From Cyclobacteriaceae bacterium (GTDB taxonomy: Bacteria; Bacteroidota; Bacteroidia; Cytophagales; Cyclobacteriaceae): 64,000 bases of DNA. A model generated the notes under the pieces. The model was not told the origin of the DNA. It searched no databases and saw only the letters and a list, made by a program, of their open reading frames with translations. The stretch spans positions 1 through 64,000 of the forward strand of contig JAOUDZ010000003.1 in assembly GCA_029858965.1 (NCBI GenBank), written 5' to 3'. Shown one piece after another: positions 28,910-37,713 of this stretch. Position 1 is the stretch's first letter. Each line of letters opens with the position of its first letter. Both the position numbers and the translations under genes were made by a program.

Positions 28910-29005
28910 TTTTGCAGGTTTGTTTCTAACTTCACAAGAAGATACTTTTAGAGGAAGCTTATATCGCTTGCTTTGCGGAGTCAGGTTATTACCAAAATCA
29001 TTATC

Positions 29006-30163
29006 ATGAAACGACGAAAATTTGTAAAAGCGATCACTGCAGGATCGGTAGGTACTGCTACGTTAAGTTCTTTGACAACGTCTGCTTTGGCATATGAACA
29101 TAAGAAGACTTCTGAAACGGATCCTGACGCCAACCAAACTGGTAAGAAAGTTCTCATGAAAGTTGGTTGTCAATCCGGTGGTACAACCATAGAAAACCTC
29201 GAATTTAAGGCAAGGCATGGTGTATTCAATATTGATGGTGGGATGCCAAAGATTATTGAAGGCGTCGGCTGGGACATCGAGGATTCACTTCGTAAGCGAG
29301 AAGCCTGCGAAAAGTATGGCATCAGCCTGGATGCCTATCATCTTCCCTTAAGTTCTGCTGGTATCGACAAAGTATTGTATCCGAATATCATGCTCGGTAA
29401 AAGCCCCGAACGGGATCGAGAAATAGAGATCATCCAACAAATGATACAGGTTGCTGCAAAGACTGGGATCAAGGTTTTGAATTATAACACAACCATTCAT
29501 GGCGTACTACGGACATCACGAACGGTGGACCCCACACGCGGCAATGCGTCCTACAGTACATGGAATTATGAAGAAGCTGCTAAGAAAAACGATCCAAAAA
29601 CCATAGCCGGGGATGTTTCTATTGATCAAATGTTTGATCGAATCAAATATCTGATCGACAGGATCGTCCCTGTTGCAACGGAATACAAGGTCAAGTTGGC
29701 TAACCATATCGCAGATCCTCCGACACCCCTTGGCTTTCGTGGGATATCACGCTGGGATAGCCCCGACGTATTTGCCGGAATCCAGCGTTTTGCAAAACTT
29801 TCGGATAGCCCTTATCATGGCTTTAACTTTTGTATTGGCTCAATCGCTGAAGGGCTAAAAGATCCTAAGAACGAAATTCTTCCTATTATCAAGTGGGTGG
29901 GTGAACGAAACCAGATCTTCAACATTCATTTGCGAAATATCAAGGGCGGATGGAATAATTTTCAAGAAGTGTATCCGGATAATGGAGACATGAATTTCTT
30001 CCAGGTAGTAAGGGCATTGCGTGATGTAGGCTTTGACGGTATGGTGATGCCCGATCATGTTCCCTCGCATTCCGCCAGCGGAAGTAATCAGGAGGCATTC
30101 GCTTTTTGCTATGGATATATTAAGGCGATGTTGCAGGCACTTGATTGGGAGGCGAGATCCTGA
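29006..30163 (+). CDS. Tat-exported mannonate-dehydratase-like TIM-barrel protein
   Basis: From ATG 29006 the protein begins MKRRKFVKAITAGSVGTATL, a twin-arginine signal. The mature part is a TIM barrel related to UxuA: LANHIADPPTPLGFRGISRW, FNFCIGSIAEG, FNIHLRNIKGGW, the F-x-E-x5-NGD segment and VMPDHVPSH line up with the metal-binding motifs of mannonate dehydratase (His, Cys, His and PDH). Cytoplasmic UxuA has no signal peptide, so this is an exported relative, probably acting on a sugar acid or sugar in the periplasm. The alternative is a general xylose-isomerase-like epimerase. Confidence 0.75.
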   Translation: MKRRKFVKAITAGSVGTATLSSLTTSALAYEHKKTSETDPDANQTGKKVLMKVGCQSGGTTIENLEFKARHGVFNIDGGMPKIIEGVGWDIEDSLRKREACEKYGISLDAYHLPLSSAGIDKVLYPNIMLGKSPERDREIEIIQQMIQVAAKTGIKVLNYNTTIHGVLRTSRTVDPTRGNASYSTWNYEEAAKKNDPKTIAGDVSIDQMFDRIKYLIDRIVPVATEYKVKLANHIADPPTPLGFRGISRWDSPDVFAGIQRFAKLSDSPYHGFNFCIGSIAEGLKDPKNEILPIIKWVGERNQIFNIHLRNIKGGWNNFQEVYPDNGDMNFFQVVRALRDVGFDGMVMPDHVPSHSASGSNQEAFAFCYGYIKAMLQALDWEARS

Positions 30164-30239: not shown

Positions 30240-30941
30240 TTACCCCGCGCTGAATTCTCCTGCTTCCCAATACAGCACTGAGGTCTGTTTCATTTCCCTG
30301 TCATTCAGGTACGCCTGATACAGAGACGAATATTCCTTACGATTTGAAACTACCTCATCGTACTTACCCAACCCACCGATCAGCAACTCACATGATTCCC
30401 GCACCGCTCCAAAGGCAGTAGCGGTAAAAGTTATGTAGTCGCATGCATTGATTCGCCTGACAAAATTGCGAAACAGCGGTGAACCCTTTCTATTCACCAG
30501 CACGCGAAGTCCAGCTTGCTCAGCAATTGGAAGATCAAGCACATCATCATATATGTAACATATCTCCTGCGGCTTGAGGGCATGTTTCTTCAAAAAATGG
30601 TCAAACGCAAATCCTTTATTCTTGGCCTGCAGAAAAATGTCATCAAAATGCTCGCGGTTAGCAAGTTGCAGCGAGGCCGGATTATTTTCTCCGGTTATAA
30701 TACCCGTTGGAGGAACTTTTTTGTGCTGAAGCCACCAACCAAATCGAAGTAAATTAGTGCCCATCGCATCTGTCTCAGAAAACACGCTGCCCTGATCGCC
30801 GAACTTAGAGCCGTCGTTGAATACGCCATCCCAATCGAACAAGAATGCTTTTGTCTGAAACAACTTTTCCGCAAACAAAGATGGAGAAGCAACAAACTCC
30901 CCCCCCATTTTTGTAAATATCTCTGCTACATCTGCCATCAA
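30240..30941 (-). CDS. KdsC-like HAD phosphatase
   Basis: A 233-residue HAD hydrolase of the KdsC/YrbI type, which removes phosphate from Kdo-8-phosphate. Motif I is DWDGVFNDG, motif II threonine lies in GIITGENN, motif III lysine in AKNKGF and motif IV in IYDDVLDLP. It is longer than E. coli KdsC (188 residues) by a C-terminal extension from about residue 180. It is the last gene of the kdn/kds operon, overlapping the transaldolase gene by 4 bp (ATGA), which makes Kdo-8-P the likely substrate. Confidence 0.8.
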   Translation of the reverse strand: MMADVAEIFTKMGGEFVASPSLFAEKLFQTKAFLFDWDGVFNDGSKFGDQGSVFSETDAMGTNLLRFGWWLQHKKVPPTGIITGENNPASLQLANREHFDDIFLQAKNKGFAFDHFLKKHALKPQEICYIYDDVLDLPIAEQAGLRVLVNRKGSPLFRNFVRRINACDYITFTATAFGAVRESCELLIGGLGKYDEVVSNRKEYSSLYQAYLNDREMKQTSVLYWEAGEFSAG

Positions 30942-31945
30942 GCAAGATCCTGGATATCGAGCATACCAACAGGCTTGTTACCATCCAGGACGAGAATAGT
31001 GTCAATCTTTTTTTGATGAAAAATATCTTTAGCGACATTTAGCAGATCTGTAGCTTGCACAGAAAGAGGTACACTGTAAGTGTAATCAGACATGTTTTTG
31101 TGCAAGGCATCATCGCCTTCGCTTTGAAGCCTTCTGCGAATGTCTCCATCCGTGAAAATGCCTACTACAGCGCCTTTGTCATCTACCAGTGTGATCGCAC
31201 CAAAACCATATTCAGTCATCTTAATGATCGCATCGACAAGGGATGTTTTCACATTGACAACCGGATTAATATTACTTATTGCATCGCCCACCTTCACCGT
31301 CATCAAACGTGTATGTTCAACGAACTGATCAGTGCCTAAAGTGGTCAAATTATTATCAGTTAGTCCTTTCATTACTTTCCAGGGCACTGTAATCGTATGA
31401 ACCCCCAAATTAATTGCGTTCCGCACATGCTCAGGATTTCGAACGGAGGAGAACATTACCTTGGTGTCGTATCCATAATGATCCACTGCCCACACGCATT
31501 GCTCTACCAAATCCAGCGCATCATGGCCTTGATCCTGCAAGCGACCCACCAATGGGCAAACATAGGTAGCGCCAGCCTTCATCGCCATATAGGCTTGCTG
31601 GAGGGTATAAATCAAGTGTACATTCACCAACAGCCCTTTCTCGCGCAAAAGTCTGCAAGCACGCACGCCTTCCAGCGATACTGGTATCTTAAAAACAGTT
31701 TTGCTCGGGTCAAGTCCTAATTCGAGTTGGCGCTGCGCCTCTGCCAACACTTCTTCAGCTGTCTTGCCCAGTGCTTCAATCTGCAGAACCGGAACAATTT
31801 TGCTGAGTTTGACGATCAACGAATCAATATCTGTTACACCACCACGGTGCATGAAGGTTGGCGTAGTCGTAAGCCCATCCAAGAATTTGAGTTTGAAAGC
31901 TTCTTCTATTTCGTTGAGATCGGCTGAATCAAGATATAATTCCAT
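30938..31945 (-). CDS. Transaldolase/fructose-6-phosphate-aldolase-like domain fused to a CBS pair
   Basis: Residues 1-215 are a small class I aldolase of the FSA/MipB/TalC type: MELYLDSADLNEIEEA, DGLTTTPT, Schiff-base lysine K86 in VFKIPVSLEG, AMKAGATYVCPLVGRLQDQG. Residues from about 225 to the end are two CBS motifs, including GAITLVDDKGAVVGIFTDGD and PVGMLDIQDL, which read like the C-terminal CBS pair of the arabinose-5-phosphate isomerase KdsD. KdsD itself is absent. In an operon with KdsA and a KdsC-like enzyme the inferred job is to supply or control D-arabinose-5-phosphate, either by aldol chemistry from C2 plus glyceraldehyde-3-phosphate or by another route. The fusion frame is uninterrupted. 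Confidence 0.85.
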   Translation of the reverse strand: MELYLDSADLNEIEEAFKLKFLDGLTTTPTFMHRGGVTDIDSLIVKLSKIVPVLQIEALGKTAEEVLAEAQRQLELGLDPSKTVFKIPVSLEGVRACRLLREKGLLVNVHLIYTLQQAYMAMKAGATYVCPLVGRLQDQGHDALDLVEQCVWAVDHYGYDTKVMFSSVRNPEHVRNAINLGVHTITVPWKVMKGLTDNNLTTLGTDQFVEHTRLMTVKVGDAISNINPVVNVKTSLVDAIIKMTEYGFGAITLVDDKGAVVGIFTDGDIRRRLQSEGDDALHKNMSDYTYSVPLSVQATDLLNVAKDIFHQKKIDTILVLDGNKPVGMLDIQDLA

Positions 31946-31974: not shown

Positions 31975-32814
31975 TTAATTCCTGTACTTTACTTCCACAG
32001 CATGAAGGTCAAGAATTGGTTTCATGAATTCTTCAAGGTCATATACGCATAACTGACTGGCGGCATCACATAATGCTTTGTCAGGCTCCGGATGTGTTTC
32101 AACAAAAACACCGTCTACACCTGCAGCAACTCCAGCGCGTGATAATACAGGCAAGAATTCTCTCGCCCCACCCTTTGCATCGGCACTGGGTATTCCATAT
32201 TTCCGAATGCTGTGGGTAATATCAAACACCACAGGATATCCAATGTTATTGAGGTGATAAAAGCTGCGTGGATCTACCACCAGGTCATTGTATCCGAAAG
32301 TGTAACCGCGCTCCGTTAATATTATTCCGGTATTGCCAGCATCTTCAACTTTTTTTGTCGGGTGCTTCATGTTATCGGGAGCCAGAAATTGCCCATGCTT
32401 AATGTTGACTACGCGCCCTGTTTTGGCAGCAGCAACCACCAACGTAGTCTGCATACACAGGTAGGCCGGTATCTGCAATACATCAACTACCTCGGCTGCG
32501 GCCGCAGCCTGATCAGGGTAATGAATATCGGTCAATACAGGAAACCCGAACTGTTCTTTTATTTTTGCGAGCATCTTGATGCCTTTGTCAAGCCCTGGAC
32601 CATCATAGTATTTTGCGGAACTGCGGTTGTCTTTCTGAAAGGATGATTTGTAAATGATTGGCAACTTGAGCCTCTCCCCAACCTCCTTTAACTTCTCCGC
32701 AGTCTTCATCATGATCATCTCTTCTTCGATCACGCATGGACCGGAAATCAGAAATAGCTGACTGCTACCGCACGTGATATTTCCTACTTGTACCGTTTTT
32801 TTGTTCATTATCAA
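31975..32814 (-). CDS. kdsA: 3-deoxy-8-phosphooctulonate synthase, Cys-containing (metal-dependent) type
   Basis: KdsA condenses PEP with D-arabinose-5-phosphate to Kdo-8-phosphate. Marks: FLISGPCVIEEE, YKSSFQKDNRSS, GFPVLTDIHYPDQA, LQIPAYLCMQ, NIKHGQFLAPDNM, LTERGYTFGYNDLVVDPR, VVFDITHS and VFVETHPEPDKALCDA. The cysteine in SGPC together with His and Glu residues places it in the metal-dependent class (Aquifex-like) rather than the Asn-type metal-independent E. coli class. Its start overlaps the dehydrogenase gene by 4 bp. Confidence 0.95.
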   Translation of the reverse strand: MIMNKKTVQVGNITCGSSQLFLISGPCVIEEEMIMMKTAEKLKEVGERLKLPIIYKSSFQKDNRSSAKYYDGPGLDKGIKMLAKIKEQFGFPVLTDIHYPDQAAAAAEVVDVLQIPAYLCMQTTLVVAAAKTGRVVNIKHGQFLAPDNMKHPTKKVEDAGNTGIILTERGYTFGYNDLVVDPRSFYHLNNIGYPVVFDITHSIRKYGIPSADAKGGAREFLPVLSRAGVAAGVDGVFVETHPEPDKALCDAASQLCVYDLEEFMKPILDLHAVEVKYRN

Positions 32815-33890
32815 AATCTTTTGAATAGCTCCTTTATTGTATTAATGGTTATCCTTGTCTTCCAATCGGTGCCAATTGCATGATTCCACATGTGTTCAAG
32901 TTTAATTGCCACTTCTGCCATATCTGTAATAACCTGGTCCGACCAGGAAGCACTCAGTCCTTGGGGCAAAACTACGTTGTGCTTTTTCATCATCCTGTTG
33001 AATTCTGCCACACCCTCAGGATAATAATCCCCCAGGTGTTGAAAAGCCAGGCAATTGGCATAGCAATGCTTTTCACCCAGGATTTTCGAAAGCCCATAGC
33101 TTAGTGCGTGGCAAACACCTACTTCTGAATACGTAAGACTCAAACCTCCCATCAACGATGCGACCATAAGCTTATCATCATTTTCAGCGGTCTGGCCTGC
33201 TTGATCACCGAGGTAAATGTCGCGACACAATTTAAGTGCTTGCTCTCCATATGCCATGCTATAGGCATTATTTAATATTCCATGCATGCTTTCAATGCAG
33301 TGAATGTAGGTATCCATGCCGGTGTAAAACCATTTGTCGTTCGGTACACTCGCGATCAATTCAGGGTCCAATACAACCTGATCAAAAATGGTCCACTCAC
33401 ATTTCAACCCCAGCTTCTTAACAGGCCCCGTCAATACAGCTGTCATGGAACACTCTGCCCCTGTGCCGGAAATAGTAGGCACGCCCACATGATATATACC
33501 CGGTATCTTAATTAGATTTAATCCCTGATACAATTGGGATGAGCCTTCGTTGGTAAACATCAGCGCAGCGGCCTTGGCAATATCCATAATGCTTCCACCG
33601 CCAATACCAATAACGCCGGCAGGCAACCCATTCTCCTTCAGGATTGTATCGCGAAGTTCATCAATTTGATCTGTGGTGGGCTCATGAGGATCCACATCGA
33701 TGAATCTTACCACATCCTCAGCTTGTTTTGGAAGGCGCTTCACTAAATCCTTACCCTTAAAATAATTGTCAATAATAAACACCATGAAATGATCGTTGGC
33801 ATTTCTCCTGGGTTCCAGTATCTGACCAAGCTGATCAAAACTCCCCCTGCCGAATACGGTCTTATCAATCCCCTTAAAATTCTTGTGCAT
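32811..33890 (-). CDS. kdnB: KdnB-like iron-type alcohol dehydrogenase
   Basis: A 359-residue group III metal-dependent alcohol dehydrogenase. NAD site GIGGGSIMDIAKA and PTISGTGAE; metal ligands in GMDTYIHCIES (Asp and His) and VGVCHALSYGLSKILGEKHCYANCLAF (two His). The exact wording of many segments (FYTGMDTYIHC, KHNVVLPQGL, YPEGVAEFNRMMKKHN) matches what I recall of Shewanella KdnB, which oxidises C8 of Kdo before amination. It lies 2 bp downstream of the KdnA-like gene and overlaps kdsA. Without a search, assignment rests on recalled similarity plus operon partners. Confidence 0.8.
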   Translation of the reverse strand: MHKNFKGIDKTVFGRGSFDQLGQILEPRRNANDHFMVFIIDNYFKGKDLVKRLPKQAEDVVRFIDVDPHEPTTDQIDELRDTILKENGLPAGVIGIGGGSIMDIAKAAALMFTNEGSSQLYQGLNLIKIPGIYHVGVPTISGTGAECSMTAVLTGPVKKLGLKCEWTIFDQVVLDPELIASVPNDKWFYTGMDTYIHCIESMHGILNNAYSMAYGEQALKLCRDIYLGDQAGQTAENDDKLMVASLMGGLSLTYSEVGVCHALSYGLSKILGEKHCYANCLAFQHLGDYYPEGVAEFNRMMKKHNVVLPQGLSASWSDQVITDMAEVAIKLEHMWNHAIGTDWKTRITINTIKELFKRF

Positions 33891-33892
33891 TG

Positions 33893-35092
33893 CTAAGCTA
33901 TTTGAACTGCCTTTACGGATTTGGTAATCTTTGCGACTAGAGAATCCAATTCATCCTTAGTCCACGTAACACGGATTCCAAATGAAACGAGTCTTCCAAC
34001 GACTTCCTGAGACTTTGCTAAACTCATTTTTTGATAATCTTGAGGAGCGCCAAGCAGATGAATTGGAAGCTTTGCAGCAGTCTTCAAACCTTTCAGATGG
34101 TCCCACTGATTAATGAAGTGATACATGTTGGTATACCAGTAGTTGAAGCCAGTAACGCCATCGGCATTGAATTGCTTCACTACCTTGCCTGCCATAGCCG
34201 TATCCTCGAAAAACATATTCAAGAAAGTACCTGAGTCACCTGCCGGATCGGGCAGTGCAGCAAATGAAATTCCCGGGAAGGCGGATAAAGCCTTGGTAAG
34301 GTATAGCTTATGCTCATTGTTTTTCTTTACGATCATAGGAACCCTCCTTGTTTGCGCCAAACCAATGGCCGCATTGATCTCACCTATACGATAGTTAAAG
34401 CCCAGGATAGGATGGCTCTCCATGCCCCGGTTTCCGCCGATATGATCGTGACCATGATCCGAATAACTGTCTGCATAGAGGTAGCATTGTTTATCCTGAG
34501 TAACCATCACACCACCTTCGCCGCACGTAGCAATCTTGAAAAAGTCGAAAGAATAACACCCTGTTTTGCCAAACAGGCCTACTGCCTTACCCTGAAAAGA
34601 AGCACCGAAGGCCTGCCCTGCATCTTCTACCAGAATAAGATTATGTTCTTGGACCACTTTCATGATCTCATCCATTCTCGCCATTTGGCCACACATGTGA
34701 ACCAGTAACACTGCCTTGGTTTTTGGGGTAATGGCCTTGCGAATACCCTCTGCACTCAGGCACAGCGTCTCGTCAATTTCTGCAAATACTGGAAGTGCCC
34801 CGCAAAATAAAACGGCCTCATTGGACGCCACGTACGTAAATGGTGGAATTATTACCTCATCGCCTGCACCCACACCGGCCGCTGCCAATGCACAAGCTAC
34901 AGCTGTCGAACCGCTGGAAACTGCATGGGCATACTCCGCTCCGGTAACCTTCCTAACTTCAGCTTCGAAATCTCTTGCCTTCCAAATATTATTTCGTTGA
35001 TTTTCATGATTGTAGCGAAAAAGAATACCCGTCTCGAGTACATCATTTACCTCTTTTCGCTCCTCTGCCCCAAATAGCTCAGTTCCTGGCAT
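33893..35092 (-). CDS. kdnA: KdnA-like PLP-dependent sugar aminotransferase (DegT/DnrJ/EryC1)
   Basis: A 399-residue DegT-family aminotransferase: SSGSTAVACALAAAGVGAGDEVIIPPFTYVAS, LVEDAGQAFGASF, the PLP lysine in CYSFDFFKIATCGEGG, SDHGHDHIGGNRGMESHPILGFNYRIGEINAAIGLAQ. The first residues MPGTELFGAEERKEVNDVLE and the SDHGHDHIG segment match Shewanella KdnA as I remember it, the enzyme that aminates 8-oxo-Kdo to Kdo8N. It is the first gene of the five-gene operon and is preceded by a TATATTTG promoter element. Other DegT substrates are possible, but the KdnB and KdsA neighbours point to Kdo8N. Confidence 0.8.
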   Translation of the reverse strand: MPGTELFGAEERKEVNDVLETGILFRYNHENQRNNIWKARDFEAEVRKVTGAEYAHAVSSGSTAVACALAAAGVGAGDEVIIPPFTYVASNEAVLFCGALPVFAEIDETLCLSAEGIRKAITPKTKAVLLVHMCGQMARMDEIMKVVQEHNLILVEDAGQAFGASFQGKAVGLFGKTGCYSFDFFKIATCGEGGVMVTQDKQCYLYADSYSDHGHDHIGGNRGMESHPILGFNYRIGEINAAIGLAQTRRVPMIVKKNNEHKLYLTKALSAFPGISFAALPDPAGDSGTFLNMFFEDTAMAGKVVKQFNADGVTGFNYWYTNMYHFINQWDHLKGLKTAAKLPIHLLGAPQDYQKMSLAKSQEVVGRLVSFGIRVTWTKDELDSLVAKITKSVKAVQIA

Positions 35093-35490: not shown

Positions 35491-36372
35491 ATGGATATCA
35501 CGTCAACAGAGCGTCGGGCTTTTCTTAAGAACCTTGCATTAATGAGTGCATTGGGTTTTCTTCCTACTTCAATGGTTGCCGGCCTGGCAAAGAAAACCGA
35601 CATGAAGCTGGGGTTGGTGACATACCTTTGGGGAAAGGATTGGGATGTACCAACGATTATAAAGAATTGCTCAGCAGCATCCATATTTGGCGTTGAACTC
35701 AGAACGGAACACGCGCACGGTATTGAGCCCGCTTTATCTGATTCCGAGCGATCTGAAGTAAAAAAGAAATTTGCAGATAGTCCCGTGAAGATTGTAGGGC
35801 TGGGCACCAACCAACAGTACGATTTCGCGGAAACAGACAAAGTAAAAGAATCCATAAAAAAGACTGCGGAGTTTATTAAGCTGTCCCATGATATTGGTGG
35901 GAGCGGAGTCAAGGTTAAGCCAAATGCATTCCATATCGGAATACCGCACGAGAAAACAATCGAGCAGATTGGTAGGTCTTTGAACGAGGTTGGCAAGATC
36001 GCCGGAGATTATGGCCAGAAGATCAGACTTGAAGTTCACGGGAATGAAACTCAGGAGCTTCCAAACATTAAGGCTATCATGGATGTCGCAGACAACAAAG
36101 CTGTTGTAGTCTGCTGGAATTGCAATGATGAGGATTTATTGGGCGGCGGACTGGAATACAATTTTAACCTTGTTAAGAAAAGACTTGGAGACACGGTCCA
36201 TGTCCGCGAAATGAATATTGGATCCTATCCCTATCAGGATCTGATGGCGCTTTTTGTAAAGATGAACTACAGTGGATGGATTTTGCTCGAATGCCGCACT
36301 GATCCTGACGATAAAGTTAGTGCCATGATTGAACAGCGCGATGTGTTTCAGAAGATGATTGCAAAGAAATGA
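35491..36372 (+). CDS. Tat-exported sugar phosphate isomerase/epimerase-like TIM barrel
   Basis: A 293-residue protein starting MDITSTERRAFLKNLALM, a twin-arginine signal. The mature region is an AP-endonuclease-2/xylose-isomerase-like barrel: MKLGLVTYLWGKDWDVPTI, GVELRTEHAHGIEP, VKVKPNAF, LEVHGNETQ, VCWNCNDED, VHVREMN and ILLECRTDP supply the usual His, Glu and Asp metal positions. It begins the plus-strand run with the Gfo/Idh/MocA gene 36 bp downstream, a pairing common in oxidative sugar or cyclitol breakdown. Substrate unknown. Confidence 0.78.
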   Translation: MDITSTERRAFLKNLALMSALGFLPTSMVAGLAKKTDMKLGLVTYLWGKDWDVPTIIKNCSAASIFGVELRTEHAHGIEPALSDSERSEVKKKFADSPVKIVGLGTNQQYDFAETDKVKESIKKTAEFIKLSHDIGGSGVKVKPNAFHIGIPHEKTIEQIGRSLNEVGKIAGDYGQKIRLEVHGNETQELPNIKAIMDVADNKAVVVCWNCNDEDLLGGGLEYNFNLVKKRLGDTVHVREMNIGSYPYQDLMALFVKMNYSGWILLECRTDPDDKVSAMIEQRDVFQKMIAKK

Positions 36373-36408: not shown

Positions 36409-37713
36409 ATGAAAAACAAGCATAACATATCCCGAAGAAAGTTTATCAAAAATACGGCGGGGGCGGCGGCGCTATTCACCGTACCAACTATTATCCCTGC
36501 AAGCGCCTTTGGATCAAACGATAAGATACAGGTAGCTGTATTGGGTGTTAATGGCAGGGGAAAGGATCATATCAAAGGCTTTCAGCGGCTGGAAAATGCA
36601 CAGGTTGTGTACTTGTGCGATCCGGATAAGAATGTTCTCGCAGAACGGTCAGCTGACTTTGAAAAGACATATTCAAAGAAAGTTCAGGTTGAGCAGGACA
36701 TGCGGAAGATTTTTGACAACAAAAAGATTGACGCTGTTAGTGTAGCTACACCTAACCATTGGCATACACTGGCAGCAATTTGGGCCATGCAGGCCGGCAA
36801 AGATGTGTATGTCGAGAAGCCTGGATCTCATACTATTTTTGAAGGCAGGATGCTCATTGAAGCTGCAAAAAAATATAAGCGCGTCTTTCAACATGGTGTA
36901 CAACTGCGAAGTTCAGTTGCTATTCAGGAGGCAATTAAGCACCTGCGAGATGGACTGATCGGCAATGTATACATGGCCAGAGGTCTTGTTTTCAAATGGC
37001 GGCCCGATATAGGTGACAAAGGTACGGAGCCTGTGCCTGAAGGACTTGACTACGATCTGTGGACTGGTCCCGCAGAGATGAGACCGTTCTCCCGGAATTA
37101 TGTGCACTATAACTGGCATTGGCATTGGAATTATGGAGATGGCGACGTTGGGAATCAGGGCATCCATGAAACCGATCTGTGTATGTGGGGCCTCGATGTT
37201 GGATTGCCTGAAAAAATCACATCCATCGGCGGAAAGTTTTTGTGGGACGATGCTAAGGAGACGCCTGAAGTATTAACATCCAACTATCATTATCCGTCAC
37301 AGAAGAAAATGATTGAATTCGAGGTACGACCCTGGAATACAAACAAGGAAGATGGAACAGGGATAGGTAATATTTTTTATGGAAGCGAGGGCTACATGGT
37401 CGTGGACGGCTATAATAAATATTCTACCTTCCTCGGCAAGGAGAGAACGCCAGGTCCCACACGCAAAGAAGGTGGTGATCATTACAAGAATTTTGTTGAT
37501 GCCGTCGTGGCAAAGAATCCATCGCTTTGTAATGGGCAGGTGGAAACAGCACACTTGTCTTCCGGGCTTGCCCACCTGGGTAATATTGCCTACCGCGTAG
37601 GCAGGGTACTTACTTTTGATCCCAAGACGGAAAGATTTGTCGGAGACGACGAAGCGGATCAATTGCTAACACGGACTTATCGCGAACCGTTTGTTGTTCC
37701 AAGCCAGGTTTAG
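36409..37713 (+). CDS. Tat-exported Gfo/Idh/MocA oxidoreductase
   Basis: A 434-residue protein with the signal ISRRKFIKNTAGAAALFTV. The Rossmann domain has VAVLGVNGRGKDH and VYLCDPDKN, followed by SVATPNHWHTLAAIWAMQAGKDVYVEKPGSH, where the EKP lysine is catalytic in the family. The C-terminal domain contains GNQGIHETDLCMWGL with the catalytic His position, and GSEGYMVVDGY. Exported members in Bacteroidota carry tightly bound NAD(H) and interconvert keto and hydroxy groups of sugars and glycosides. It follows the TIM-barrel gene, and a strong hairpin terminator lies 52 bp after its stop. Confidence 0.85.
   Translation: MKNKHNISRRKFIKNTAGAAALFTVPTIIPASAFGSNDKIQVAVLGVNGRGKDHIKGFQRLENAQVVYLCDPDKNVLAERSADFEKTYSKKVQVEQDMRKIFDNKKIDAVSVATPNHWHTLAAIWAMQAGKDVYVEKPGSHTIFEGRMLIEAAKKYKRVFQHGVQLRSSVAIQEAIKHLRDGLIGNVYMARGLVFKWRPDIGDKGTEPVPEGLDYDLWTGPAEMRPFSRNYVHYNWHWHWNYGDGDVGNQGIHETDLCMWGLDVGLPEKITSIGGKFLWDDAKETPEVLTSNYHYPSQKKMIEFEVRPWNTNKEDGTGIGNIFYGSEGYMVVDGYNKYSTFLGKERTPGPTRKEGGDHYKNFVDAVVAKNPSLCNGQVETAHLSSGLAHLGNIAYRVGRVLTFDPKTERFVGDDEADQLLTRTYREPFVVPSQV

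Follow-up and report, generated by a model that had tools for sequence, protein, structure and literature searches.

A transaldolase-CBS fusion protein as the probable replacement for the arabinose-5-phosphate isomerase KdsD in Bacteroidota

Kdo is widespread in the outer membranes of Gram-negative bacteria and is needed in large amounts by each cell, and the formation of arabinose-5-phosphate (A5P) by KdsD or GutQ is the textbook first step of its synthesis. The A5P isomerases KdsD, GutQ and KpsF combine a catalytic SIS half with a pair of CBS domains. The protein described here (TAL-CBS) holds the same place in the pathway according to genome evidence and has a related C-terminal CBS pair, but its catalytic half is a transaldolase barrel. 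With the TalC/MipB/FSA enzymes (3r8r, 1vpx, 1l6w) it shares the fold, the catalytic lysine, Asp and Glu, and the positions of the phosphate-site Arg and Ser; it differs from them in the added CBS pair and in scoring below the curated cut-offs. The synthesis of 8-amino-Kdo involves KdnA (5k8b) and KdnB (5k8c), described in Shewanella; similar genes head the TAL-CBS operon, and in Bacteroidota they accompany TAL-CBS and a KdsA of unusual sequence, though not in all TAL-CBS loci. Finally, FsaA has been employed in synthetic pathways to form A5P by aldol addition, according to PMC9947464, and shares one proposed chemistry with TAL-CBS, the joining of glycolaldehyde and glyceraldehyde-3-phosphate (GAP) to A5P. 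That route is an engineered use, whereas TAL-CBS would have a natural biosynthetic role. No report of a replacement of KdsD by a transaldolase-CBS protein was found in the open-access literature searched.

The TAL-CBS gene and its operon

The DNA analysed (the window) is a stretch of 64,000 nucleotides, in which five genes lie on the minus strand in the order kdnA-like, kdnB-like, kdsA, TAL-CBS and KdsC-like HAD:

33893..35092, minus strand, KdnA-like 8-amino-Kdo transaminase (447 bits to 5k8b)
32811..33890, minus strand, KdnB-like Kdo C8 oxidase, an iron ADH (414 bits to 5k8c)
31975..32814, minus strand, kdsA of a distinct clade of the Kdo-8-phosphate synthase family (TIGR01362, tree, alignment)
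30938..31945, minus strand, TAL-CBS fusion gene, the proposed KdsD replacement (335-residue open reading frame, Pfam domains, AlphaFold model)
31310..31945, minus strand, transaldolase/FSA-type barrel of TAL-CBS, residues 1-212 (Pfam, structure match, alignment)
31688-31690, minus strand, codon of K86
30941..31300, minus strand, KdsD-like CBS pair of TAL-CBS, residues about 216-335 (Pfam, PDB search, profiles, TIGR00393)
30240..30941, minus strand, KdsC-like HAD phosphatase (listed TTG start; its first 4 bases are shared with the 3' end of TAL-CBS)

The genes are closely packed, with 2 bases between the kdnA-like and kdnB-like genes and 29 between kdsA and TAL-CBS. With its listed TTG start kdsA overlaps the kdnB-like gene by 4 bases, and its start codon may lie at 32808 rather than 32814. 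The preliminary description had placed TAL-CBS between kdsA and a kdsC-like gene, and profile searches confirmed this position: the window kdsA scored 333.6 bits with TIGR01362 (cut-off 314), and the best match of the HAD protein was KdsC PRK09484, at 58.7 bits against a cut-off of 208, which makes it a distant KdsC (44.6 bits with the KdsC phosphatase model TIGR01670, cut-off 106.95). Around the operon, 28973-30163, 35491-36372 and 36409-37713 (+) have, by eye, twin-arginine-like signals at the gene starts; 28973-30163 and 35491-36372 belong by their matches to families of TIM-barrel sugar enzymes.

The description of TAL-CBS as a transaldolase fused to CBS domains was likewise borne out. Pfam placed TAL_FSA at residues 3-203 (118.5 bits, cut-off 27) and CBS in two stretches C-terminal to the barrel (53.7 bits, cut-off 24); no other Pfam domain was present, the SIS catalytic domain of KdsD/KpsF being absent. 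On the plus strand of 30938-31945, that frame is interrupted by stops. An AlphaFold model built on an alignment of 56 sequences (pLDDT 88.7, pTM 0.68) contained a barrel resembling the B. subtilis and T. maritima transaldolases (3r8r, 1vpx) over ~210 residues, with a TM score of ~0.9 by target length, and the Schiff-base lysine K86 was found where claimed, within VFKIPVSLEG. Membership of the whole protein in the curated FSA or KdsD families was rejected on the scores: 159 bits with the FSA/TalC equivalog TIGR00875 (cut-off 245.95) and 67.9 bits with TIGR00393 (KdsD/KpsF; cut-off 203.7), the latter match covering profile positions 153-267 only.

We then compared the CBS half with other CBS proteins. 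Among the CBS hits of a PDB sequence search, the CBS pairs of A5P isomerases 4o9k, 3fna and 3k2v led with 46.7, 40.0 and 39.5 bits, followed by the next at 34.0. A profile of the TAL-CBS pairs gave 59.7-78.6 bits with 17 of 17 KdsD CBS pairs and at most 55.5 with 16 other CBS proteins, and an origin from IMPDH, nucleotidyltransferase-like or stand-alone CBS proteins was rejected on these scores. With the reverse profile, made from KdsD, 66 TAL-CBS pairs scored 63.0-96.5 bits and the best other protein, a stand-alone CBS pair, 64.4, slightly above the weakest TAL-CBS pair. The claim of a KdsD-like CBS pair therefore stands clearly by the PDB ranking and the TAL-CBS profile, while the KdsD profile narrowly overlaps other CBS proteins; judged from these comparisons, KdsD is the nearest relative of the CBS half among the CBS proteins compared. 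The structure 4o9k was reportedly solved with CMP-Kdo. Sensing of a nucleotide or a CMP-sugar by the CBS pair of TAL-CBS is plausible.

The association with Kdo genes was surveyed in 101 TAL-CBS loci (after removal of six duplicates). kdsA was present in 82 of the 96 loci with at least 0.9 kb upstream, within 300 bases in 59, and the HAD gene in 78 of 94 with enough flank, within 300 bases in 69. kdsB was found in 26 of the 101 loci, and kdsA, HAD and kdsB were all out of reach in seven, some of which had little flank. TAL-CBS probably occurs in many more genomes, as only the best 80 of the 554 candidate stretches that encode a relative in a GTDB scan were kept. The KdnA-like and KdnB-like genes, which head the operon at 32811-35092, occurred together in 44 of the 80 loci with at least 5 kb upstream, and 8-amino-Kdo may thus be common in Bacteroidota. 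In two loci a nucleotidyltransferase-like reading frame, AbiEii-type by eye, lies between TAL-CBS and HAD (L069:8329-8964 (-) and L065:1720-2343 (+)).

Distribution of TAL-CBS and KdsD

Profile searches for TAL-CBS, KdsD, KdsA and KdsB were performed in 148 Cyclobacteriaceae genomes. TAL-CBS was found in 21 (395-739 bits, against 141 bits for the best match below these), while KdsD, KdsA and KdsB exceeded their cut-offs in 78, 103 and 126. KdsA and KdsB were both over cut-off in 101 genomes, including all 21 with TAL-CBS. Among these 101, TAL-CBS was present in 21 and a KdsD-type gene in 80 (a count that takes in SIS-only genes as well as fragments that are split or lie at contig ends), with one genome carrying both (G075) and one, 83% complete, carrying neither (G008). 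The exclusion within the 103 KdsA genomes gave a Fisher value of 3.5e-17, which overstates independence since the genomes are related; many of the genomes used throughout are metagenome assemblies. As separate observations in this sample, KdsB was over cut-off without KdsA in 25 of the 148 genomes, some of them incomplete (for example G007, G012 and G025), and a SIS-only KdsD with no CBS pair adjoins kdsA in two loci (L079:5181-5828 (-) and L080:8508-9113 (-)).

A further 54 TAL-CBS genomes came from the best 80 stretches of the GTDB scan (50 genomes) and from a phylum sample (4). KdsD over cut-off was absent from 51 of them, completeness being given for 4 of the 54; the three genomes in which both genes occur are G542, G547 (Chryseolinea serpens) and G580. 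In total, intact KdsD was absent from 71 of 75 TAL-CBS genomes, G075 being the fourth exception. KdsA was over cut-off in 47 of 50 TAL-CBS genomes, and the other three (G536, G548, G578) have a cut or split kdsA beside TAL-CBS. One of the 21 family copies of TAL-CBS, in G037, carries an in-frame stop, with the match limited to residues 1-259.

TAL-CBS was rare in the phylum sample, which comprised 395 evenly drawn genomes: 6 had TAL-CBS, 284 a KdsD match (E<=1e-30) and 287 a KdsA match (E<=1e-80). Intact KdsD was found in none of the 6 TAL-CBS genomes, compared with a KdsD match in 276 of the 281 other KdsA genomes (Fisher 6e-10, independence again being overstated through kinship). Compared by eye, ten KdsA genomes lack a KdsD match, five of them with TAL-CBS and five with neither gene (G170, G342, G414, G444, G498); the sixth TAL-CBS genome is the source genome of the window, in which the KdsD match is a decayed gene.

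That genome had been proposed to run a Kdo operon without KdsD, and a search of its contigs with SIS/KdsD profiles indeed found no intact kdsD. The SIS matches were the two halves of a 613-residue reading frame, which from its size we take to be GlmS, a 269-residue frame that reads like MurQ, and the decayed kdsD, which lies on a different contig (C48). This remnant lies between recQ and manC, encodes 302 residues and scores 193 bits (cut-off 203.7). In two genomes of the same genus, G015 and G136, the kdsD between recQ and manC is full-length, and G093 also has a full-length kdsD. The remnant is 55-56% identical to these orthologues, compared with 79-89% among the orthologues themselves, and the flanking manC and recQ share 83-84% and 91-93% identity with their counterparts in G015 and G136. 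The remnant has lost the motifs EACPxNLAPTTSTT and YHPGG, as well as the second CBS domain. Contamination by the window contig was considered and thought unlikely, four 16-kb chunks of it correlating at 0.92-0.95 with C48 in tetranucleotide composition (C48 against another contig, C141, 0.93); the test is soft, with 0.90 for G015, 0.88 for G131 of another genus, 0.85 for an operon piece and 0.71 for short rpoB pieces.

The reciprocal arrangement was seen in G136, which has kdnA-kdnB-kdsA-kdsC without TAL-CBS (its kdsA was assigned from the tree; kdnA, kdnB and HAD were identified by eye from the beginnings of the proteins) together with its full-length kdsD. Chryseolinea serpens (G547) has both the TAL-CBS and the KdsD sets. 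On an RpoB tree of 29 genomes the G136 and Chryseolinea serpens cases are neighbours, and the distribution of TAL-CBS needs 7 changes, 6 of them forced by starred branches; the count is approximate, G542 being a long row and G044 left out with no rpoB match.

Could KdsD merely have been missed, through assembly gaps or through the search model? Many of the genomes are fragmented, and the five KdsA genomes of the phylum sample with neither gene show that a KdsD match can be lacking without TAL-CBS. However, intact KdsD is absent from 71 of 75 TAL-CBS genomes, compared with only 5 of the 281 KdsA genomes of the phylum sample that have no TAL-CBS, it is absent from the well assembled TAL-CBS genomes G433 (3 contigs) and G017 (10 contigs), and in the source genome the decayed kdsD is still in place. 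We give this explanation almost no credence. Taken together, the near-complete exclusion, the decayed kdsD and the reciprocal case of G136 suggest that TAL-CBS most likely takes over the supply of A5P from KdsD. The genomes give good support to a non-homologous replacement, and the claim that the protein replaces KdsD at the A5P step is further favoured by the closeness of its CBS half to KdsD. From gene content and sequence, we consider it probable that TAL-CBS has replaced the SIS-fold KdsD as the A5P source in the Kdo pathway, and that its KdsD-type CBS pair serves as the regulatory half. If so, a replacement of KdsD by an enzyme of another fold would break a textbook rule and fill a pathway gap in annotation. 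It would also present a regulatory CBS pair in a new catalytic context, and provide an aldolase or epimerase that forms A5P naturally.

The barrel active site and its possible chemistry

Alignment of 72 distinct TAL-CBS barrels showed that D6, E57, K86, N108, R135, S167 and R169 are conserved in all, so that each has the catalytic Asp, Glu and Lys that mark barrels of the superfamily of PF00923. Six further positions are fixed in the 72 barrels at residues that differ from those of ordinary transaldolases (10 of 10, from the same family of genomes), the differences being N28T, L31F, T110H, F113Y, S130C and F132L. The donor-site Asn28, Ser130 and Phe132 of ordinary transaldolases are thus absent. 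For most residues, position 130 excepted, the roles given here are those usual for transaldolases. Position 130 aligns with A129 of FSA and S176 of TalB, where mutations alter donor preference, as stated in PMC3962226.

The retention of the catalytic residues and the replacement of the donor-pocket residues make TAL-CBS look like an active Schiff-base enzyme with a different donor. If TAL-CBS were an ordinary transaldolase or fructose-6-phosphate aldolase that has come under CBS control and has no part in supplying A5P, this would account for the fold match to 3r8r and 1vpx and for the 159 bits with TIGR00875. That score, however, is well below the cut-off, the source genome has a separate transaldolase-family gene (on C141) with the ordinary residues at the compared positions, the donor pocket is altered in 72 of 72 homologues, and the exclusion with KdsD would be left unexplained. 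We regard such an enzyme as highly improbable.

Under the preferred reading, that of an A5P source, K86 would react with C1 of either an aldose phosphate or glycolaldehyde to form a Schiff base and give a two-carbon enamine, whose bond to GAP would yield A5P. The enamine could derive from ribose-5-phosphate, by C2 epimerisation or by retro-aldol cleavage and re-addition, or from free glycolaldehyde supplied with GAP; we hold these substrates to be about equally likely. H110, fixed where transaldolases have Thr, is a candidate for an extra acid/base. The CBS pair would probably exert feedback control by the end product, for example CMP-Kdo or CMP-8-amino-Kdo, and KdsA, HAD and, where present, KdnB and KdnA would then make Kdo or 8-amino-Kdo.

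The preliminary description had proposed strictly an aldolase for glycolaldehyde and GAP, a special case of the preferred reading. C130, at the donor-preference position (129 in FSA, 176 in TalB), and T28 would fit a donor that lacks the C1 hydroxymethyl of dihydroxyacetone. On the other hand, no glycolaldehyde source was seen in the TAL-CBS operon, and free glycolaldehyde would be an uncertain feedstock for the high cellular demand for Kdo. According to PMC9947464, E. coli FSA joins glycolaldehyde and GAP to A5P, yet the glycolaldehyde affinity of E. coli FsaA is judged not sufficient in vivo; the same paper holds that an alternative aldolase of very high affinity for A5P formation could help pathway engineers. 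We therefore regard a strict glycolaldehyde aldolase as possible, though with some doubt. The same source states that TalB F178Y makes ribose-5-phosphate as well. A transaldolase active site thus reaches both pentoses, so ribose-5-phosphate could, by analogy, also be the starting point of TAL-CBS, through the same kind of Schiff-base chemistry.

A bolder reading, which we offer tentatively, is that TAL-CBS is a new kind of Schiff-base enzyme that turns ribose-5-phosphate into A5P at C2 under CMP-sugar feedback through its CBS pair, and that TAL-CBS and its own KdsA clade make up a second Kdo cassette, which has spread horizontally and, on several occasions within Bacteroidota, ousted the route through KdsD. 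To our knowledge, no Schiff-base enzyme that converts ribose-5-phosphate to A5P on a transaldolase barrel has been described.

The partner KdsA clade

The KdsA proteins encoded beside TAL-CBS (loci L058-L078 and L092-L171, plus the window gene at 31975-32814 (-)) formed a single long-branched clade with 100/100 support, and the window KdsA shares 38-51% identity with the 11 ordinary KdsA included in that tree. The alignment left out 16 loci without a full-length gene and 3 of 14 ordinary loci. Four changes (A61D, R120M, K139H and Q205R in E. coli numbering) were present in 81 of 81 distinct clade proteins, the 11 ordinary copies having A, R, K (one R) and Q at these positions. K60, N62, R63, S64, D95 and H202 were kept in all 81, including K, N and R of the K-x-N-R motif of Kdo-8-phosphate synthase; ordinary copies have T at 64. 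Some of the fixed changes are probably at the acceptor site. R120 of KdsA contacts the A5P phosphate from the neighbouring subunit. The loss of Arg at 120 may be compensated by the gain of Arg at 205, or the two changes may be a sign of another acceptor.

The altered KdsA could leave room for an acceptor other than A5P. TAL-CBS might then make a different aldose phosphate (a pentose- or hexose-phosphate), which the clade KdsA would condense with PEP to a Kdo analogue, KdsD having been lost since Kdo is no longer made. The long branch and the four invariant changes speak for this, as do G547 and G542, which have a full set of each kind and retain two KdsA along with KdsD and TAL-CBS; in G075, which also has both TAL-CBS and KdsD, one KdsA was over cut-off. 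Against it, the clade KdsA of G136 is the only KdsA over cut-off there and is paired with KdsD, without TAL-CBS. Conversely, G579 has two KdsA, one at an ordinary score, and no KdsD over cut-off; the same holds for G037, although the TAL-CBS copy there is the one with the in-frame stop. These cases argue that the clade KdsA accepts A5P, since in G136 it occurs with KdsD alone and in G579 an ordinary-scoring KdsA stands beside it without KdsD. The six kept residues and the frequent KdnA-like and KdnB-like genes also weigh against another acceptor, which we consider unlikely compared with A5P supply by TAL-CBS.

One TAL-CBS operon (L154) lies on a contig recorded as the proteobacterium Azovibrio restrictus, which is probably a misplaced Bacteroidota contig.
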